This document shows positions 2,554 to 13,279 of a stretch of 64,000 nucleotides of DNA, one piece after another. Source of the stretch: Streptomyces sporangiiformans (GTDB lineage Bacteria; Actinomycetota; Actinomycetes; Streptomycetales; Streptomycetaceae). The notes beneath the pieces are model-generated. The model saw only the letters and a program-made list of their open reading frames with translations, ran no database searches and was not told the DNA's origin. Location of the stretch: positions 62,001 to 126,000 of the forward strand of contig NZ_VCHX02000153.1 in the NCBI RefSeq assembly GCF_005768555.2. The letters are read 5' to 3'. Numbering within the stretch: position 1 is the first letter of the stretch; every line of letters starts with the position of its first letter. The position numbers and the translations under genes were made by a program.

Positions 2554-3267
2554 ATGACGGAGGCGTACTTACCGGGCGGGGGCCTGGACGACCAGGTGCC
2601 CTTTCTGGCCCGGCTGGAGCGCGAGGAGCGCACGGCGCTGCTGGCACTGGGACACGAGCTGGGTTTCTCGCCCCGTGTCGTGATCCTGCATGAGCGCGAA
2701 CCGTCGTCGCATGTCCTCCTCGTCGTCGAGGGCTGGTCCAAGGTGACCGCGGCCGCACCCAACGGTTATGAGGCGCTGCTCGCGCTGCGTGGTCCCGGCG
2801 ACATCATCGGCGAGTCCGCCGCGCTGACCGGGCGACCGCGCTCGGCGACGGTGACCGCGCTGGAACAGGTGCGCGCGGTCGCAGTGGAACGCGAGCGCTT
2901 CACCGACTTCCTCACCCACTCGCCCGCGGTGTCGTTCGCTCTGCTCGGCCTCACGTCCGACCGCACACGCGCGGCCGACCGACGGCGGCTGGAGTTCGCG
3001 TCCATGAGCGTGCGGGAACGATTCGCCGTCCTGCTGCTGGACCTGGCCCGCGCCCATGGCCGTCGTACCGCCGAGGGCATCGAGCTCTCCGTGCCCCTGA
3101 GCAAGCAGGAGCTGGCCGGATCCGTCGGCGCGTCCCGCGAGATGGTCCAGCGCTTGCTGAAAGAGCTGCGCACGCGCCAGGTGGTGACCACCGGCCGACG
3201 CACGCTGCTCATCGCCCGTCCGGACATCCTGCGCCGCATCGCCCGCTCCGAGCATCCGGATTTCTGA
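2554..3267 (+). CDS. Crp/Fnr-family transcriptional regulator with intact cNMP-binding cassette
   Basis: A 237-residue protein with an N-terminal cyclic-nucleotide-binding fold (about 15-130) and a C-terminal winged helix. The phosphate-binding cassette GDIIGESAALTGRPRSATV (residues 82-100) keeps the Glu (E87) and Arg-Ser pair (R96, S97) that contact ribose and phosphate in true cNMP sensors. The DNA-binding part has LSKQELAGSVGASREMVQRL as its helix-turn-helix. Start choice: ATG 2554 follows GGGGG; GTG 2536 is an alternative. Codon 6 is TTA (2569-2571), the rare leucine codon read by bldA tRNA, so translation may be developmentally limited. It heads a plus-strand block containing a nucleotide cyclase and is a likely receptor for that enzyme's product (inference). 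Confidence 0.88.
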   Translation: MTEAYLPGGGLDDQVPFLARLEREERTALLALGHELGFSPRVVILHEREPSSHVLLVVEGWSKVTAAAPNGYEALLALRGPGDIIGESAALTGRPRSATVTALEQVRAVAVERERFTDFLTHSPAVSFALLGLTSDRTRAADRRRLEFASMSVRERFAVLLLDLARAHGRRTAEGIELSVPLSKQELAGSVGASREMVQRLLKELRTRQVVTTGRRTLLIARPDILRRIARSEHPDF

Positions 3268-3283
3268 GCTCTCAGCCCAGGGA

Positions 3284-3331
3284 CTTCAGCCCGGGCGCTT
3301 CAGCCCGGGCGCTTCAGCCCGGGCGCTTCAG
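3284..3331. repeat. Tandem 14-bp repeat, three exact copies plus a partial one
   Basis: The unit CTTCAGCCCGGGCG occurs at 3284-3297, 3298-3311 and 3312-3325, followed by CTTCAG. A diverged copy may precede it. Each unit contains the palindrome GCCCGGGC. It lies between the Crp-like gene and the cyclase gene, just after the former's stop codon. Confidence 0.9.
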
Positions 3332-3432
3332 TGCACACGGTCACAGTTCGAGTGCGTCATCCTCCCTCACGGCTCCGGGCCGTTCGTCGCCAAGCTGCTG
3401 CACGGCACAGCTTCCCCGGCCGAGAGGTGACC

Positions 3433-4260
3433 ATGACCGACCCCGTGAGCAGGACGATCCTTCTGCTCGACATTGAGAAGTACAGCGACCGGGACGATGT
3501 GGAGCAGGCGTATCTGCGCCGCATGCTCTACGGCATCACGGACCGCGTTCTGGAAAGCGCCGGCATCGATGAGACCCGGCGCCTGCGCGCCGACCGCGGC
3601 GACTCGGTCATGGAGCTGATCGACGCCGGTGCCTCGATGACCGCGCTGCTCCGCGCCCTGCTGACCGAGGCGCCTGTGGAACTGCGTGCGGTGAACCGCA
3701 CGGCGTCGAAGTCCGCGCAGATCAGGCTGCGAGCCGTGCTCGCCACCGGGTACGTCGCGATCGACGAGCTCGACGGCTGGGTCGGATCCGACCTCAACCA
3801 CGCCTGCCGGCTGCTCGACGGCGCCGTCCTGCGCACGGCGCTGAGGGAGCGCCCGGACGACTTCGCCCTGTGCGTCTCGGAGAGCGTGCACCACGGAATC
3901 GTCCAGCACGACTATCCGGGCATCCCCAGGGACGACTTCCACGCGGTCACGATGTCCAGCAAGAACGGGCCCCTGCGGGCGTGGCTGCACGGGCCGGTGC
4001 CTGAGGACGCGAAAGCCGCCGAGGTCGCCGACGTTCCCGATGTCGCCGAGGGCGCCGAGGATCAACCCGCCGCGCCGAGCCAACCGGCCGCGTCTTCCAG
4101 CCCCGCCTCCGCCCCCGCCTCCGTCAACTTCTTCGGCGGCTCCCCTTCCTTCGGCGGCAGCTTCGTGAACGGCGACCAGCACGGTGTGTCCGGCGGAACC
4201 GTGCACGGAGATGTGCACCTCGGAGGCAGCGGCTCCGGCGGACGGGGTGAGCGGGAATGA
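3433..4260 (+). CDS. Divergent class III nucleotide cyclase-domain protein
   Basis: A 275-residue protein; ATG 3433 follows GAGAGGTG at 3424-3429. Residues 8-190 match the class III adenylate/guanylate cyclase pattern. LLLDIEKYSD gives the first metal-binding Asp (D13), RADRGDSVM the second (D57), and GSDLNHACRLLDG the transition-state Asn122 and Arg126, spaced four apart as in known cyclases. All four expected catalytic positions are therefore present, so it is probably active; the base used is unknown. A Pro/Ala/Ser-rich linker (190-230) leads to a glycine-rich tail FGGSFVNGDQHGVSGG (240-255 region) also found in the next protein. Its stop overlaps the next start (ATGA), so the two are probably co-translated. 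Divergent cyclases of this kind make the messenger in Pycsar anti-phage systems. Confidence 0.75.
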   Translation: MTDPVSRTILLLDIEKYSDRDDVEQAYLRRMLYGITDRVLESAGIDETRRLRADRGDSVMELIDAGASMTALLRALLTEAPVELRAVNRTASKSAQIRLRAVLATGYVAIDELDGWVGSDLNHACRLLDGAVLRTALRERPDDFALCVSESVHHGIVQHDYPGIPRDDFHAVTMSSKNGPLRAWLHGPVPEDAKAAEVADVPDVAEGAEDQPAAPSQPAASSSPASAPASVNFFGGSPSFGGSFVNGDQHGVSGGTVHGDVHLGGSGSGGRGERE

Positions 4261-6467
4261 CGACCGAAGCCCCGGATTCCGAGAGCACCGAGCACGCCGA
4301 CAACGCCGAGACCACCAAGAACACCGAACACGCCGAGAACAAGGAGGAAGAACAGGATCGACCGCAGGACGCGTGGTCCGCCCGACGGGACCTGGTGGAC
4401 CACAGCCCGAAGTCCATGCACGTCGGCGCCAACTCGCGCTTCGGCGGCAGCCTGGTCGCCGGAGACCAGCACGGCGTGTCCGGCGGCCTGGTCGCCGGAG
4501 ACGTGATCATGGGCGGCAAGACGGAGATCTATCACTTCGGGGTCTCCGCCGCGGGCGGCCATGGCTCCGGCGAGGTGCCACCAGCGACGCTGGACCGTCT
4601 CGCCCCGTACTTCGTCGCCGAAGAGAGCGTCTTCGAGGGCCTTGTGACACGGCTTCGTACGGAACGTGTCGTCGTACTCTCCGGCCCCCACTTCACCGGC
4701 CGGCGTACCGCCGCCCTGATGCTGCTCCACCGCCTCGGTGTGTCCCCGGTCCGCACCCTGGTCCGCGACACCACTCCGGAGCAGCTCGTCCAGCAGCTCA
4801 GCGACGACAAGCACCCGGCGCGCGGATATGTGCTGTGCGATCTGACCACCCGCCGCGACCAGCCGCTGCGGGAACCGCATCTCCTCGCCGCTCGCGATCA
4901 ACTGTCCAAGGACGACGGCTACTTGGTCATCACCGTCGGCCCCACGGCGGCCCTGGAGGACATTTCCCCCGTCCGCTGGAAGCCGCCGAGCCCCGGCGAC
5001 GTGCTGACGGCGCACCTGCGTGTGCTGACCGACGAGGCCACGGCACACCGGCTGCTGACGCTGCCCGCTGTCGCGGAATTCCTCGGACGCGACCACCAGT
5101 TGCGCGAAGTCGCGGAGTTCGCGAAGACCCTCAAGCGGTACGCGGACGGGGAGGTCGACGAGGCAGCCGTCAGGAACTTCTCGCTGTTCAGCCTCGAAAA
5201 CCAGGTCCAGGAGTGGTTCGAGGAGGACGAGGAGCAGGTCCCCTTGCGGGACAAGGCGTTCCTCGTCGCGCTGGCCGCCTTCGACGGAGGCCCGTACGCC
5301 CTCACGGCCGAGCTGAGCGACCTGCTCTACGCCTTCCTCCAGGGCACCGAGAACTCCGCTGTCCGCCCGCGGGTCCCCGTCTTCGGGACACATATCGGCA
5401 AGCGCCTGCAACTCGCGCGCGCCGAGCGCTTCAAGGAGGAGGAGAGTACGGAGTGGGGCCCGGTCATCCAGTCCAAGGCCGCCTTCCGCGACGACCGCGT
5501 CTCGCTCGTCCTGCTGCGCGAGGTGTGGACCGGCCACCCCTCGGCCCGGCCCGCCCTGGTCCACTGGCTCCAGCGGCTCGCCGACGACGGAAGGCCCCTG
5601 GTCCGCACCCGCGCGGCGTCGACCGTCGCCGTCCTCGCGTACACGGACCTGCCCTCCACCATGGCCCTGGTCATCGAACCATGGGCCACGTCCCGCCTGT
5701 TCCGCCGACGCCTCGTCGCCGTCAACGCGTTGACACTCGCGCATCTGCTCGACGCACCCAACATCCCGCGCATCCTCGACGCCTGGTGCGAGAGCGACGA
5801 CGAAGGCATGTGCTGGGTGGCGATCCGCGCGTACGGGCTGATCGGCGCGGAGCGGCCGGAACAGACACTCGCCGCGCTCCGGAACGCCATCCGCAAGCAG
5901 TACGAACGACCGGGGCACGACGGCGACAGCAACAGGGACGGTGACGGGGACGGGGACGGCGTTGACGATCTCATGGTGAAACAGCTCGCGCAGTCGGTGG
6001 AGTTGCTGCTGCTCTCGCCCGCCGGTGACCAGGTCCTCACTGAACTGCTGCGCACGCTCGACGACGACCGGGCCGTCCACGACCTCGCCCTGAGCGGCTT
6101 CCTCAGCGCGTGTCGGCGGCGAAAGGACGACGAGCGGCACGGGCAGCCGCTGGTTCTCGACTGGTACGCCACCTCGGCGGCGGACGGCGGCCGCGCGGCC
6201 GGGGGCATCGCACGGCTCTGGCGCGCGGCGCTCGACGACCGCCGGCACACGCGGGACGCGCTCGAGGAGCTGACCGCGTGGATCCATACCGCCGACCGGG
6301 ACCCCGAGGCGGAAAGGGCGCTCGCCCGCCTGCTGCCGAGCCTGGCCGGCACCGCTGCCGAACACCAGCGCCTGAGTCATCTGCTGCGCACCATGCGCGG
6401 CGAGGACAGTCCGCCCCCGCCGGACGTCGCGGCCCGTCTGCTCACCACTCTTTCGGCCCGCCACTGA
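4257..6467 (+). CDS. Large P-loop NTPase-like protein with helical-repeat C-terminus
   Basis: A 736-residue protein of no named family that I can assign. Residues 1-50 are acidic and low in complexity. Residues 61-87 carry the glycine-rich motif FGGSLVAGDQHGVSGG shared with the cyclase. A P-loop-like segment follows: VVVLSGPHFTGRRTAALM (138-155) with Arg where Walker A has Lys, and a possible Walker B GYVLCDLTT near 189-197. The remaining 450 residues look like paired alpha helices of HEAT/ARM type and contain an Asp-Gly run near 560-575. The layout recalls STAND-type sensor NTPases. It is coupled to the cyclase by a 4-bp overlap. A role as sensor or scaffold for the cyclase is inference. Confidence 0.6.
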   Translation: MTTEAPDSESTEHADNAETTKNTEHAENKEEEQDRPQDAWSARRDLVDHSPKSMHVGANSRFGGSLVAGDQHGVSGGLVAGDVIMGGKTEIYHFGVSAAGGHGSGEVPPATLDRLAPYFVAEESVFEGLVTRLRTERVVVLSGPHFTGRRTAALMLLHRLGVSPVRTLVRDTTPEQLVQQLSDDKHPARGYVLCDLTTRRDQPLREPHLLAARDQLSKDDGYLVITVGPTAALEDISPVRWKPPSPGDVLTAHLRVLTDEATAHRLLTLPAVAEFLGRDHQLREVAEFAKTLKRYADGEVDEAAVRNFSLFSLENQVQEWFEEDEEQVPLRDKAFLVALAAFDGGPYALTAELSDLLYAFLQGTENSAVRPRVPVFGTHIGKRLQLARAERFKEEESTEWGPVIQSKAAFRDDRVSLVLLREVWTGHPSARPALVHWLQRLADDGRPLVRTRAASTVAVLAYTDLPSTMALVIEPWATSRLFRRRLVAVNALTLAHLLDAPNIPRILDAWCESDDEGMCWVAIRAYGLIGAERPEQTLAALRNAIRKQYERPGHDGDSNRDGDGDGDGVDDLMVKQLAQSVELLLLSPAGDQVLTELLRTLDDDRAVHDLALSGFLSACRRRKDDERHGQPLVLDWYATSAADGGRAAGGIARLWRAALDDRRHTRDALEELTAWIHTADRDPEAERALARLLPSLAGTAAEHQRLSHLLRTMRGEDSPPPPDVAARLLTTLSARH

Positions 6468-6537
6468 ACGGCCGTTGAGCCATCGAACCGCACGCCCCAC
6501 CCCGTCGACGTACGAACCCGCCAAGGAGGCAAGCGTC

Positions 6538-7695
6538 ATGGCTGACTTCCGCCAGCCGCCGGACTGGCAGCAACCCGCCGGCCGGCACTCACCCCTGGTC
6601 GATCCCGTCATCACCGTGCGGCAGCTCTCGCGGTTCGGGTTCTCCCGCCGGTCCCTGACCCGAATCGATCACGCCCTGGTCTTCTCCACCTCCAAGGGCG
6701 GATACGAGGCCTATCCGCCGCCCCTGCGGCCGAGCCGCGGAGAGGTGGCCACGAAGCGCTACACCGCGGTGTACGAGGTGGACATGGGCGTCCACCCCCA
6801 CCAGGCCGAACTCTGCCTGCCCAGCGACAACGACGCCTTCGAGTTCACGGCCGCCGTCGATCTGTCCTGGCAGGTGGTCGATCCTGCCGCCTTCGTGCGG
6901 AGCGGCCACCGGGACGTGCCGGTCCTGCTTCTCGGCGAACTGCAGCAGGCCGCTCGCCCCCTCACCCGCCGCTTCGCCATTCATGACAGCGCCAGAGCCG
7001 AGGCGGAGTTGCTCAGCGTCCTTGCCGGGCAGGCCTCGCCCGGTGCGACCGCCGGTCTGACTGTGATCTGGACGCTGCGGCTCCGCCGTGATCAGCAGGA
7101 GATCGACCACCAGCAACGCCTGCAGTCCATCGAGCATGCCTCCGCCGAGCAGATACGCACCGAGCAGAGCGGTATCGAGTACGACATCGCGCTCGACCGG
7201 CGCACCCGCCACCAGGACGAACTCCAGGTCGGGCGGGCCATGGATCACGGCCGGCTGGACCAGGAGCTCACGCTCCAGCGACAGAGGTGGCAGCAGGAGC
7301 AGGACCTGCTGCGGATCCGTCATCAGACAGAGCTCCAGCGGGAGGAGGCCGAGAAGATCGAGCACTACCAGAAGTACCTGGAAGAAGGCGGCGTCCGGGC
7401 CTGGGCCATGCATCTCAACGCGCATCCCGAGGACTCGAAGCTCGTCATCAACAGCATGCGCGACGATCAACTCCGGCTGATCGAATCCAAGATGGAGCTG
7501 GTGAAACAGCTGCTGGGCGGCGACGGCGCCGAGGACTACGAGCTGGAAGCACCCAAGCAGATGGCCCTGGAGGCCTTGTACGAGATCTTCAACCAGCGCC
7601 TTCCGGGGATACCTCAAGGCCAGTCGCCGGCTCCCCCGCCGGGTACCCTCTCACCGTCATCAGAGGTGGCGCCGCGAGAGGACTCCCCCTCATGA
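6538..7695 (+). CDS. SPFH/band-7-like coiled-coil protein
   Basis: A 385-residue protein; ATG 6538 sits 8 bp after a near-perfect AAGGAGG (6523-6529), which decides the start. Residues about 30-190 resemble an SPFH/band-7 domain: a short beta segment YTAVYEVDMGVHPHQ, then FTAAVDLSWQVVDPAAFV and a helix where prohibitin-like proteins have theirs. Residues about 190-300 are a charged Gln/Glu/Arg coiled coil and the tail is Pro/Ser-rich. There is no obvious N-terminal membrane anchor, unlike flotillins. It could form an oligomer that organises the neighbouring membrane protein, with whose gene it overlaps by 4 bp. Assignment rests on pattern, not alignment. Confidence 0.55.
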   Translation: MADFRQPPDWQQPAGRHSPLVDPVITVRQLSRFGFSRRSLTRIDHALVFSTSKGGYEAYPPPLRPSRGEVATKRYTAVYEVDMGVHPHQAELCLPSDNDAFEFTAAVDLSWQVVDPAAFVRSGHRDVPVLLLGELQQAARPLTRRFAIHDSARAEAELLSVLAGQASPGATAGLTVIWTLRLRRDQQEIDHQQRLQSIEHASAEQIRTEQSGIEYDIALDRRTRHQDELQVGRAMDHGRLDQELTLQRQRWQQEQDLLRIRHQTELQREEAEKIEHYQKYLEEGGVRAWAMHLNAHPEDSKLVINSMRDDQLRLIESKMELVKQLLGGDGAEDYELEAPKQMALEALYEIFNQRLPGIPQGQSPAPPPGTLSPSSEVAPREDSPS

Positions 7696-8252
7696 CCGGC
7701 GCGGACTCCCGGATTCGCGTTCCCGCGCCGGTTCCCCCGCCGGTCCCCGTGGCCGTGCCCGCGCCGGGCTTCGGCACAGCGGAACACCTGCTCGCCGACC
7801 TGCGCTCCGAGATCGCCCGCGCGGACGCCAAAGCAGCCGTACTGGTGGCTGCCCTCGGCGTGGCCGCGGGCGTCTTCAGCGGACTGCTGGCCACGCGAGA
7901 GTGGACACCGGCCGACCTCTCCGCGCTCGGCGGTTCGGCGTGGTGGTCAGGCGTGTTCGCGCTGGCCCTGGCACTTCTCGCGCTGCTCATGGCCGTACTG
8001 CCGCGCTACGGCAGCCGCAGGTGGGCACCGGGCACCCCGTTGTCGTACTTCGGTGACATCCAACAGGCCGCGCTCAGCGGCCACTTGGCGCAAGCACTGG
8101 CCGAGACCGAGAGTGTCCCGGCGGCCGGCGCGATCGCGGCCCTGACCGAGAACAGCCGTATCGCCGCGCGCAAACACCAGTGGATACGCACCGGGCTGAT
8201 CGCCTTCGGCGCCGCCGTTGTGCTGCTCCCCGGCTCCCTGCTCATCGGCTGA
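7692..8252 (+). CDS. Pycsar-effector-like (PycTM-type) three-helix membrane protein
   Basis: A 186-residue membrane protein whose ATG overlaps the previous stop (ATGA). After a Pro-rich N-terminus it has a helix ending in RSEIARADAKAAVLVAALG (residues 39-57), the ADxKA motif that I recall from the Pycsar effector domain (PF18967), running straight into TM1 (about 48-66). TM2 is about 83-104, then a soluble segment, and TM3 about 165-186 at the extreme C-terminus. That matches PycTM-type effectors, which damage the inner membrane when the cognate cyclase is triggered. No cNMP pocket is visible in it, so the ligand may be bound elsewhere. The cyclase three genes upstream makes the assignment more likely. 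Confidence 0.65.
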   Translation: MTGADSRIRVPAPVPPPVPVAVPAPGFGTAEHLLADLRSEIARADAKAAVLVAALGVAAGVFSGLLATREWTPADLSALGGSAWWSGVFALALALLALLMAVLPRYGSRRWAPGTPLSYFGDIQQAALSGHLAQALAETESVPAAGAIAALTENSRIAARKHQWIRTGLIAFGAAVVLLPGSLLIG

Positions 8253-8296
8253 CGTCCCCGTACCGCGAAGTGACGTCCCCCTCTCGGAGGCTGACC

Positions 8297-9316
8297 ATGC
8301 CGTACCCGACCGATCCCCCGCACCCGGAACCCCAAGACACCGACGAGGCGCGAGACGACCTCGACTACCGCCACAAGAGCGGCCGGCTCCACTTCGCCGC
8401 CCACCAGCGCGGCGTCGATGCCACGGCCTTCGGCCAGCTCGTCCTCCACCTCCCCGGCACGGTGATGAGCCTGCTGGTGCTCCTCCTGATATCCGGCGGC
8501 CTCGACGCCTGGCTGGGGGTCCCGCTGTGGATACCGCCGCTGATCTGGCTGGCCTCCGGGGCCTTGGTCTTCCACCGCCCCACCGAGGACTTCCTCGCCC
8601 GCTACCTCCTGCGGCTGCAACGCCCCATGCCCGAGGAGTACGCACGCCTCGATCCCGTCTGGCGCGAGGTGACCGCACGCGCCGGCGTCGACGGCCGGAC
8701 GTACGAGCTGTGGGTCGAGGACAGCCAGGACCTCAACGCGTACGCGGCCGCCGGGCACATCGTGGGTGTCACCCGGTTCGCCCTGGACCACCTGTCGAGC
8801 TCCCAGCTCGCCGCGGTCCTCGCGCACGAACTGGGGCACCACACCGGCGGCCACGTGTGGACCTCGCTGCTGGGCTACTGGTACGCGCTGCCGGGTCGCG
8901 CCGCGTGGTACGTCATCCGGCTGGTCGTCGTGTTCGCCGTGGCGCTCACCAGCTACTTCTCCTGGCTGGCGACCGCGGTACTGGTGTTCGTGATCGGCAT
9001 CGTCACGTACTCCACGATCACACAGCTCTACGGTCTCCCCCTCGTGCTGCTGGTGACCCCGTATCTGATCGCGGCCGTGGGACGCCGGGCCGAGCTGCGC
9101 GCGGACCGGCACGCCGCCGCGCTGGGCTTCGGCCCGATGCTCGCGCAGGTGCTGCAGACCATGCATGCGACCGAGACCGAGGCCAAGCGGCAGGCTCTGG
9201 CCGCCGCCGGGGCACGGCCCGCCGAACCCGGGCTGTTCGCCCGGCTGCTCTCGACGCATCCCGACTACCCGACCCGGCTGCATCGTCTGAGGCCGTACCT
9301 GCAGCCGCGCCGGTAG
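8297..9316 (+). CDS. M48-family membrane metallopeptidase
   Basis: A 339-residue predicted zinc protease; ATG 8297 is 6 bp after CGGAGG. Two membrane segments lie near residues 50-68 and 75-92, and hydrophobic segments again at about 205-260. The catalytic motif AHELGHH is at 176-182 (HELGH 177-181), and the third zinc ligand is in RRAELRADRHAAALG (E266, with D270), as in HtpX/Ste24-type peptidases. It is the last gene of the plus-strand block, 44 bp after the membrane effector-like gene, and is followed by a terminator facing rpoC. It may process a membrane or signalling protein of the block; the substrate is unknown. Confidence 0.85.
   Translation: MPYPTDPPHPEPQDTDEARDDLDYRHKSGRLHFAAHQRGVDATAFGQLVLHLPGTVMSLLVLLLISGGLDAWLGVPLWIPPLIWLASGALVFHRPTEDFLARYLLRLQRPMPEEYARLDPVWREVTARAGVDGRTYELWVEDSQDLNAYAAAGHIVGVTRFALDHLSSSQLAAVLAHELGHHTGGHVWTSLLGYWYALPGRAAWYVIRLVVVFAVALTSYFSWLATAVLVFVIGIVTYSTITQLYGLPLVLLVTPYLIAAVGRRAELRADRHAAALGFGPMLAQVLQTMHATETEAKRQALAAAGARPAEPGLFARLLSTHPDYPTRLHRLRPYLQPRR

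Positions 9317-9379: not shown

Positions 9380-13279
<3,900 letters not shown>

Follow-up and report, generated by a model that had tools for sequence, protein, structure and literature searches.

A class III nucleotidyl cyclase and the STAND-like sensor protein encoded directly downstream of it in Streptomyces sporangiiformans carry closely similar copies of a 26-residue glycine-rich motif, which probably acts as a homotypic assembly tag wiring the sensor to the cyclase. Both genes lie on a 64,000-nucleotide stretch of contig NZ_VCHX02000153.1 (NCBI RefSeq assembly GCF_005768555.2, positions 62,001 to 126,000 of the forward strand), termed the window here and numbered from its first base. The cyclase gene (275 residues, plus strand) occupies positions 3433-4257 with its stop codon running to 4260, and the sensor gene (736 residues, plus strand) occupies positions 4257-6464; the two overlap in ATGA. 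Homotypic coupling of sensor and cyclase is well supported by sequence comparison, and the term homotypic is used because each copy resembles the other and does not form a complement to it. An amyloid nature of this association is plausible by analogy with described systems.

The cyclase-side motif (FGGSFVNGDQHGVSGGTVHGDVHLGG) spans positions 4150-4227 of the plus strand and cyclase residues 240-265, and the STAND-side motif (FGGSLVAGDQHGVSGGLVAGDVIMGG) spans positions 4440-4517 of the same strand and sensor residues 62-87. Both were delimited by repeat search, cross-locus comparison, and shuffling, and both fall in regions of low per-residue confidence (pLDDT) in AlphaFold2 models, with values below 50 across sensor residues 61-102. 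The copies share 20 of 26 residues and, about 290 bases apart in the window, 58 of 78 bases (20, 22, and 16 of 26 at codon positions one, two, and three). As an ungapped DNA repeat, the likeness extends over 96 nucleotides at 72% identity (4133-4228 versus 4423-4518). An earlier note made from the letters of this DNA had described a glycine-rich motif common to the two proteins, with similar underlying DNA; the likeness holds at both levels, as do the ends of the ranges given there, but each range began one residue too early. In composition, the motif consists of Gly/Asp-rich turns alternating with Val/Ile. The top ungapped score between the whole cyclase and STAND proteins is 108, and the maximum over 1000 shuffles of the STAND protein is 63. 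A chance or low-complexity resemblance between two glycine-rich stretches, for which that composition speaks, thus has a negligible probability: none of the 1000 shuffles reaches the observed score, which rejects chance and composition, and the motif is present in pairs and changes in step across loci.

The pairing of the two copies was followed across relatives of the cyclase. A search of 392 Streptomyces genomes found a cyclase relative at an E-value of 1e-15 or better in 113, and relatives also occur outside Streptomyces, in other families of the order. Loci were drawn from 120 fetched stretches and 80 named loci, all from Streptomyces, which overlap in assemblies and were hence de-duplicated. 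The 120 fetched loci yielded 116 cyclases (two in L044 and none in L036, L043, L045, L047, and L175), and removal of 23 duplicates from a total of 196 cyclases left 173 that differ in their catalytic domains. A STAND-family gene lies directly 3' of the cyclase in 130 of these 173. A large partner, defined as a protein of at least 450 residues within the next two genes, accompanies 149; the other 24 include some at contig ends. The cyclase tail was compared with the N-terminal 160 residues of each partner, and a match was counted when its score exceeded those of all 200 shuffles. By this measure 129 of the 149 pairs match, or 128 without L170, where the match reflects a duplicated TIR-like domain (paralogy) and not the motif. 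By eye, the L170 cyclase has a C-terminal TIR-like domain and the adjacent gene encodes a homologous one, a different case of module sharing. Nine distant loci were also tested, and the distant cyclases L025 and L030 match their partners with 0 of 200 shuffles reaching the score.

The earlier note held that homologues carrying the motif in only one partner would speak against a joint role. Among the 149 pairs, no case was seen in which the motif is clear in one protein and clearly absent from an intact other, with six unclear pairs leaving room for one. Several sub-threshold pairs still resemble each other by eye: a short VxGDxxxGDKxV-type motif is common to both proteins in L046, L049, L157, L160, L161, and L174, and a weaker likeness is seen in L038, L118, L127, L129, L152, and L154. 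The six pairs with no clear match are the two in L044 and those in L050, L165, L172, and L173. At L247 the cyclase is frameshifted upstream of the motif, which persists in another frame. At L104, which is the same as L226 (Streptomyces cylindrosporus), the cyclase and STAND genes are both open and the motif has been lost from both.

The two copies also change in step. Variants in relatives include GGISGG-, QNN-, NHG-, HHG-, and TNxGV-like forms, and the partner mostly reads alike. With motif classes that were defined after the data had been seen, cyclase and partner fall into the same class in 114 of the 121 pairs that could be classed, and at least 21 class changes are needed on the cyclase tree; four of the seven discordant pairs (L127, L129, L130, and L132) seem to arise because the QHN pattern matches linker letters, a flaw that inflates the 21 cyclase-side changes, and the STAND-side labels need 17. 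A swap test compared summed cognate scores with summed swapped scores for 95 pairs, omitting L170, L173, L104, and both L044 cyclases. Cognate combinations score higher in 495 of 577 comparisons at 75-85% cyclase-domain identity (72 opposite, 10 ties); at 85% identity or more, they do so in 177 of 238 (35 opposite, 26 ties). When partners were permuted within cyclase clusters, the observed total was reached in 0 of 2000 permutations at each of three clustering thresholds. Apart from effects of genome composition, old copies that descended independently should not favor their cognates, which suggests that likeness is maintained locus by locus. The preference for the cognate partner is statistical and far from absolute.

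The codons beneath the motif suggest how the copies are kept alike. At shared residues, the same codon is used in 1814 of 2340 cognate comparisons versus 41874 of 62726 non-cognate ones, in a test restricted to 114 of 144 loci by excluding those with a match score below 70 or with fewer than 10 shared degenerate residues. Cognate sharing is higher in 92 of the 114 loci (Wilcoxon 1.5e-13, a value that assumes independence among loci that are in fact not independent), and in the window it is 0.67 versus 0.52 for non-cognate comparisons. An 81-pair version gives 1149 of 1533 (0.75), versus 0.55 expected from the codon usage of each locus and 0.65 between loci. Codon sharing within loci points to gene conversion between the copies, to which selection could add. 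The same homogenization, together with the 58 matching bases, could be taken to mean that the likeness is primarily a DNA-level direct repeat, such as a recombination or fusion element whose copies swap DNA, with the protein likeness as a by-product. That explanation is very improbable, as the match follows protein edges, divergent motif classes retain their likeness as protein, and no cyclase-STAND fusion is found among the 196 cyclases called, the longest of which has 456 residues. The edges are sharp: in the 98 of 144 loci that fit the core pattern (46 did not), likeness is at background directly outside core residues -17 to +9. In the same 98-locus set, the core ends at sensor residue 85.

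The motif appears to be private to this pair of genes. A motif profile finds two copies in the genome of S. sporangiiformans (E-values 1.6e-14 and 3.4e-12), with the next best at 0.31, among the 150 of 245 first-look candidates that were scored. Across 199 Streptomyces genomes, the same profile finds 45 places in 24 genomes at an E-value of 1e-5 or better, all of them at cyclase/STAND loci (two places in each of 21 genomes and one in each of three); up to 41 first-look candidates were scored per genome, coordinates were compared by eye, and divergent motif classes, for example that of genome G019, escape the profile. No third protein with the motif was seen among the candidates scored in the species' own genome and the 199 others. 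A close STAND homologue (E-value 2e-74 or better) is present in 75 of 384 genomes, and a by-eye comparison finds the cyclase in all 75, on the same contig in every genome except G028, where contigs break; this search scored the two best candidates per genome, so orphan copies of the sensor could be missed. The earlier note proposed that the motif joins sensor and enzyme as a co-assembly module, and on comparative grounds this is well supported by paired presence, in-step change, sharp edges, and privacy.

Shared binding to a third component, for instance the protein of the SPFH (Band 7-like) family, called P4 here, or a membrane microdomain, would also make the two motifs co-vary, through their common receptor. 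A P4 homologue is indeed found among the next genes at 125 of 130 cyclase-STAND loci, and co-variation imposed by a shared receptor would look alike. Matched pairs nevertheless occur where no P4 homologue was called, for example at L149, whose copies share 17 of 19 residues, and at L039, and the loci between L151 and L176 that have a small partner, described below, also show no P4. A common third partner is accordingly improbable as the source of the likeness, and direct coupling between sensor and cyclase is preferred.

Several results weigh against this coupling or against its generality. Twenty of the 149 large-partner pairs miss the match threshold. In the swap test, just 20 cyclases have their cognate partner as the best or tied-best of 95; when the cognate is set against the nearest relative's partner, it wins 55 times, ties 11 times, and loses 29 times. 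Independent pairs on the tree for the main motif class number four in the same direction and none in the opposite one, an underpowered comparison (p 0.125). Codon homogenization can partly reflect shared codon usage. No partner match was found for the distant cyclases L022, L024, L026, L027, and L029, and at L028 the match lies in low-complexity letters only; distant loci of this kind count against universality of the pairing. Among loci with other types of partner, the matches of L158 (5 of 500 shuffles reach the score), L171 (166 of 500), and the longer L040 partner (27 of 500) are weak or fail. No Pfam family matches any of 25 motif members, and NACHT_sigma, the profile of the fungal sigma motif, has no match at the cyclase and STAND genes in the species' own genome. 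One sub-threshold NACHT_sigma match occurs elsewhere in that genome, and matches below cut-off also occur in three of 14 control genomes. Finally, the Walker A sequence of the sensor (window 4683-4709) reads GPHFTGRRT, with Arg replacing the P-loop Lys; the same replacement is found in 45 of 46 aligned sensor homologues, which makes NTP-driven assembly uncertain. The sole homologue with Lys is the STAND protein of L226, which lacks the motif.

The sensor is organized as an acidic leader, a conserved helix, the motif, a P-loop NTPase domain, and HEAT-type repeats. Its classification draws on homologues and on structural alignment: Pfam detects nSTAND3 in 11 of 46 sensor homologues (best 1.7e-4) and HEAT_2 in 13, and the nSTAND3 match of the window sensor itself is below cut-off. 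Alignment of the sensor model with VIA-align likens residues from about 100 to 320 to AAA+-type ATPases and residues from about 320 to 736 to HEAT proteins, with Z scores of about 9-12, values that the tool rates as middling for repeats. Foldseek matches are weak and chiefly to HEAT/ARM proteins; SAMD9, which we take to be a STAND-type NTPase, ranks first and an AVAST5 filament ranks 39th.

By its predicted fold and its two metal-binding Asp, its Asn, and its Arg residues, the window cyclase is a class III nucleotidyl cyclase. Pfam gives no match to the protein, and a profile of 20 cyclase relatives matches Ma1120-type cyclases in the PDB (5d0g, E-value 3.9e-8); a Foldseek search with the AlphaFold2 model retrieves the guanylyl cyclase Cya2 (1.1e-9). 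The catalytic positions were located by alignment; the two metal-binding Asp residues are kept in 173 and 174 of 174 sequences, the Arg in 174, and the transition-state Asn in 159. The enzyme is thus apparently catalytically intact. Its base-recognition positions (Ala53, Gly115, and Cys125) are unlike those of plain adenylyl cyclases. They vary across the family, as at position 53, which is Ala in 117, Glu in 33, and Gln in 8 of 174 sequences. The catalytic domain stops near residue 190, and the remaining 85 residues comprise an Ala/Pro/Gly-rich linker and the motif, all of low confidence (mean pLDDT of 47-71 per ten residues). The linker is predicted to be disordered from pLDDT and composition (positions 4003-4149, plus strand), and across the 98 loci its fractions of Ala, Pro, and Gly are 0.21, 0.18, and 0.17. 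A median of 17 residues separates the end of the motif core from the cyclase C-terminus.

Ten families of bacterial amyloid signalling sequences (BASS), BASS1-10, were reportedly defined by Dyrka et al. in 2020. A BASS is a motif of 20-40 residues found at the C-terminus of an effector and, in the product of the neighboring gene, at the N-terminus of an NLR; the sources describe many sequence types, mainly from filamentous actinobacteria and cyanobacteria (PMC7889193, PMC8086366, PMC12261475). The cyclase-STAND pair has the same layout, with a short motif common to the effector C-terminus and the N-terminus of the adjacent STAND protein, and resembles BASS pairs in motif position and predicted disorder. 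It differs in that the effector is a class III cyclase and not a Bell, TIR, or CHAT protein, and in that the sensor is nSTAND3-like with HEAT repeats and a P-loop Arg, as judged against published descriptions of BASS1-10. A 2021 review names Bell, CHAT, and TIR domains as associates of BASS motifs, a list that contains no cyclase, and asks whether NLR-independent pathways hold signalling amyloids (PMC7889193). No description of a BASS-type motif on a cyclase was found in the literature searched, in which most subscription papers were beyond reach. Several of the motifs share GDQ, GG, and SGGNF-type runs with the fungal sigma motif, a by-eye and unquantified likeness; the sigma peptide aggregated by Fourier-transform infrared spectroscopy and bound Congo red (PMC8086366, Table 2). 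The sigma motif (NACHT_sigma, PF17106) is fungal and longer, and its profile matches 0 of 25 motif members.

A second parallel is provided by systems with effector-associated domains (EADs). In these, a core component carries one copy of a small module and an effector or a signalling enzyme carries another, and the two are often encoded in one operon (PMC7159879, PMC8195603). Adjacent copies are closest to each other, homotypic coupling is proposed, and cNMP cyclases are among the signalling enzymes (PMC7159879, PMC8195603; PMC11224242 was also used for comparison with known systems). BASS motifs and EADs are the nearest precedents for the motif, and the earlier note drew on neither. Here, too, paired copies of a small module sit on the sensor and the signalling enzyme of one operon; EADs are folded and mostly alpha-helical, in contrast to a 26-residue motif without predicted structure. 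By analogy, the motif pair may behave as BASS amyloid pairs and EAD pairs do. It is placed under neither heading because its effector has none of the Bell, TIR, and CHAT domains and because an EAD is a domain with a fold of its own. The third comparison is with Pycsar, which combines a PycC cyclase with a PycTM or PycTIR effector. The window likewise holds a class III-type cyclase and a PycTM protein in one cassette, together with a cNMP-binding protein, and differs in its additional STAND, SPFH, Crp, and M48 genes. No PADLOC family, the PycC model included, matches the cyclase, and the cassette is for this reason not filed as Pycsar.

The physical form of the coupling can be read in two ways. 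Both motifs are unstructured in the AlphaFold2 monomer models of the cyclase and the STAND protein, which in these models fits folding that depends on assembly but equally fits mere disorder. Under the first reading, which is the earlier note's own idea, the copies would dock one-to-one through an ordinary small beta structure, such as strand exchange or a short beta-solenoid heterodimer, in a homotypic or pseudo-homotypic manner and with no amyloid templating. Such docking predicts the same pairing and in-step change, and Gly/Asp-rich turns alternating with Val/Ile suit beta turns; yet parallel stacking is at least as good a fit to the identical sequence on both proteins and to their long disordered linkers, and neither monomer model shows a fold, so that simple docking is rather unlikely.

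The second reading, an amyloid-gated switch, is a real possibility that falls somewhat short of an even chance. Its amyloid-like character is suggested by layout, length, composition, and precedent, the precedent including a foci assay of BASS3 in Podospora (PMC7889193, PMC8086366, PMC9815663). For the homotypic tag, which is the probable main reading, the most likely course of events runs through such a stack. At rest, both copies would be disordered, one at the tip of the cyclase Pro/Ala linker and the other at the junction of the sensor leader and NTPase domain, as the models predict. On sensing a threat, the STAND/HEAT protein would oligomerize and gather its motif copies, as STAND proteins generally may do. 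The clustered copies would then form a beta-arch or amyloid-like stack that templates a prion-like fold on the identical copies of the cyclase, and the forced proximity would dimerize and activate the enzyme. Class III cyclases usually need two chains per active site. Threshold assembly would release a burst of cyclic nucleotide that activates the PycTM membrane effector, as in Pycsar, and that may be read by the Crp-type regulator. The copies would be kept matched by gene conversion and/or selection, and gene conversion would make the tag private to each lineage, avoiding cross-seeding between co-resident systems.

If this switch operates as proposed, amyloid-type signalling would also drive cyclic-nucleotide immune signalling, beyond the direct switching of death effectors, and three fields would be linked: NLR amyloid motifs, the EAD principle, and Pycsar. 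The activator of the Pycsar-like cyclase in these genomes would then be a STAND sensor acting through a shared tag. The in-step tags supply many natural pairs for comparisons of cross-seeding.

A cyclase-like tag also occurs on partners of another kind, so the tag principle may extend beyond STAND proteins. At L151, L153, L155, L158, L169, L171, and L176, the cyclase is followed by a protein of 135-152 residues that begins with a hydrophobic stretch and carries, at its C-terminus, an NTAxxSGxVxAVQxGxxH-like motif resembling the cyclase tail. The score is reached by 2, 0, 0, 0, and 0 of 500 shuffles for the partners (138-152 residues) at L151, L153, L155, L169, and L176, respectively. The distant locus L018, where 1 of 200 shuffles reaches the score and the partner is small, is grouped with them. 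Pfam has no match to the small partners of L155 and L176; a Bell-like effector is a possible identity.

The cyclase and sensor genes belong to a plus-strand run of six genes (Crp, cyclase, STAND, SPFH, PycTM, and M48) that spans window positions 2554-9313, flanked by rpsL (1764-2132) and rpoC (9383-13279). Both flanking genes are visible at 82 of the 130 cyclase-STAND loci, and the rpsL-rpoC interval therefore looks like a recurrent cassette site in Streptomyces. In its usual form the cassette resembles a second-messenger system of the Pycsar type to which a sensor has been added; its gene counts are lowered by incomplete stretches. The PycTM-type membrane protein (7692-8249, plus strand; Pfam PycTM PF18967 at 3.4e-20, PADLOC PycTM at 2.8e-13) is the presumed effector, lies three genes downstream of the cyclase in the window, and is present at 105 of the 130 loci. 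The presence of PycTM and of a regulator that binds cNMP next to a cyclase that appears intact points to a cyclic nucleotide as the output. The P4 protein (6538-7692, plus strand), with a coiled coil, is assigned from Band_7 matches in 5 of 13 homologues (best 1.6e-5), and Pfam gives no Band_7 match to the window P4 itself. The cassette ends with an M48-family metallopeptidase gene (8297-9313, plus strand; Pfam Peptidase_M48 at 1.2e-21), which is found at 111 of the 130 loci and whose functional membership in the cassette is uncertain. At L245 (Streptomyces scopuliridis), the cyclase stretch joins the end of the M48 gene, through either an internal cassette deletion or an assembly join.

The first gene of the cassette encodes a Crp/Fnr-family regulator (2554-3264, plus strand; Pfam cNMP_binding at 1.5e-18 and HTH_Crp_2 at 3.7e-13), a homologue of which directly precedes the cyclase, in the same orientation, at 120 of the 130 loci. 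This protein may read the cyclase product or regulate the cassette. Compared with its best PDB match by phmmer, which we take to be the CRP of M. tuberculosis, it has Ala-Asp and not Thr-Asn at two positions of the C-helix that are presumably base contacts, hinting from the alignment at another cyclic nucleotide. Between the Crp gene and the cyclase, positions 3272-3327 contain tandem 14-base units (TCAGCCCGGGCGCT and variants).

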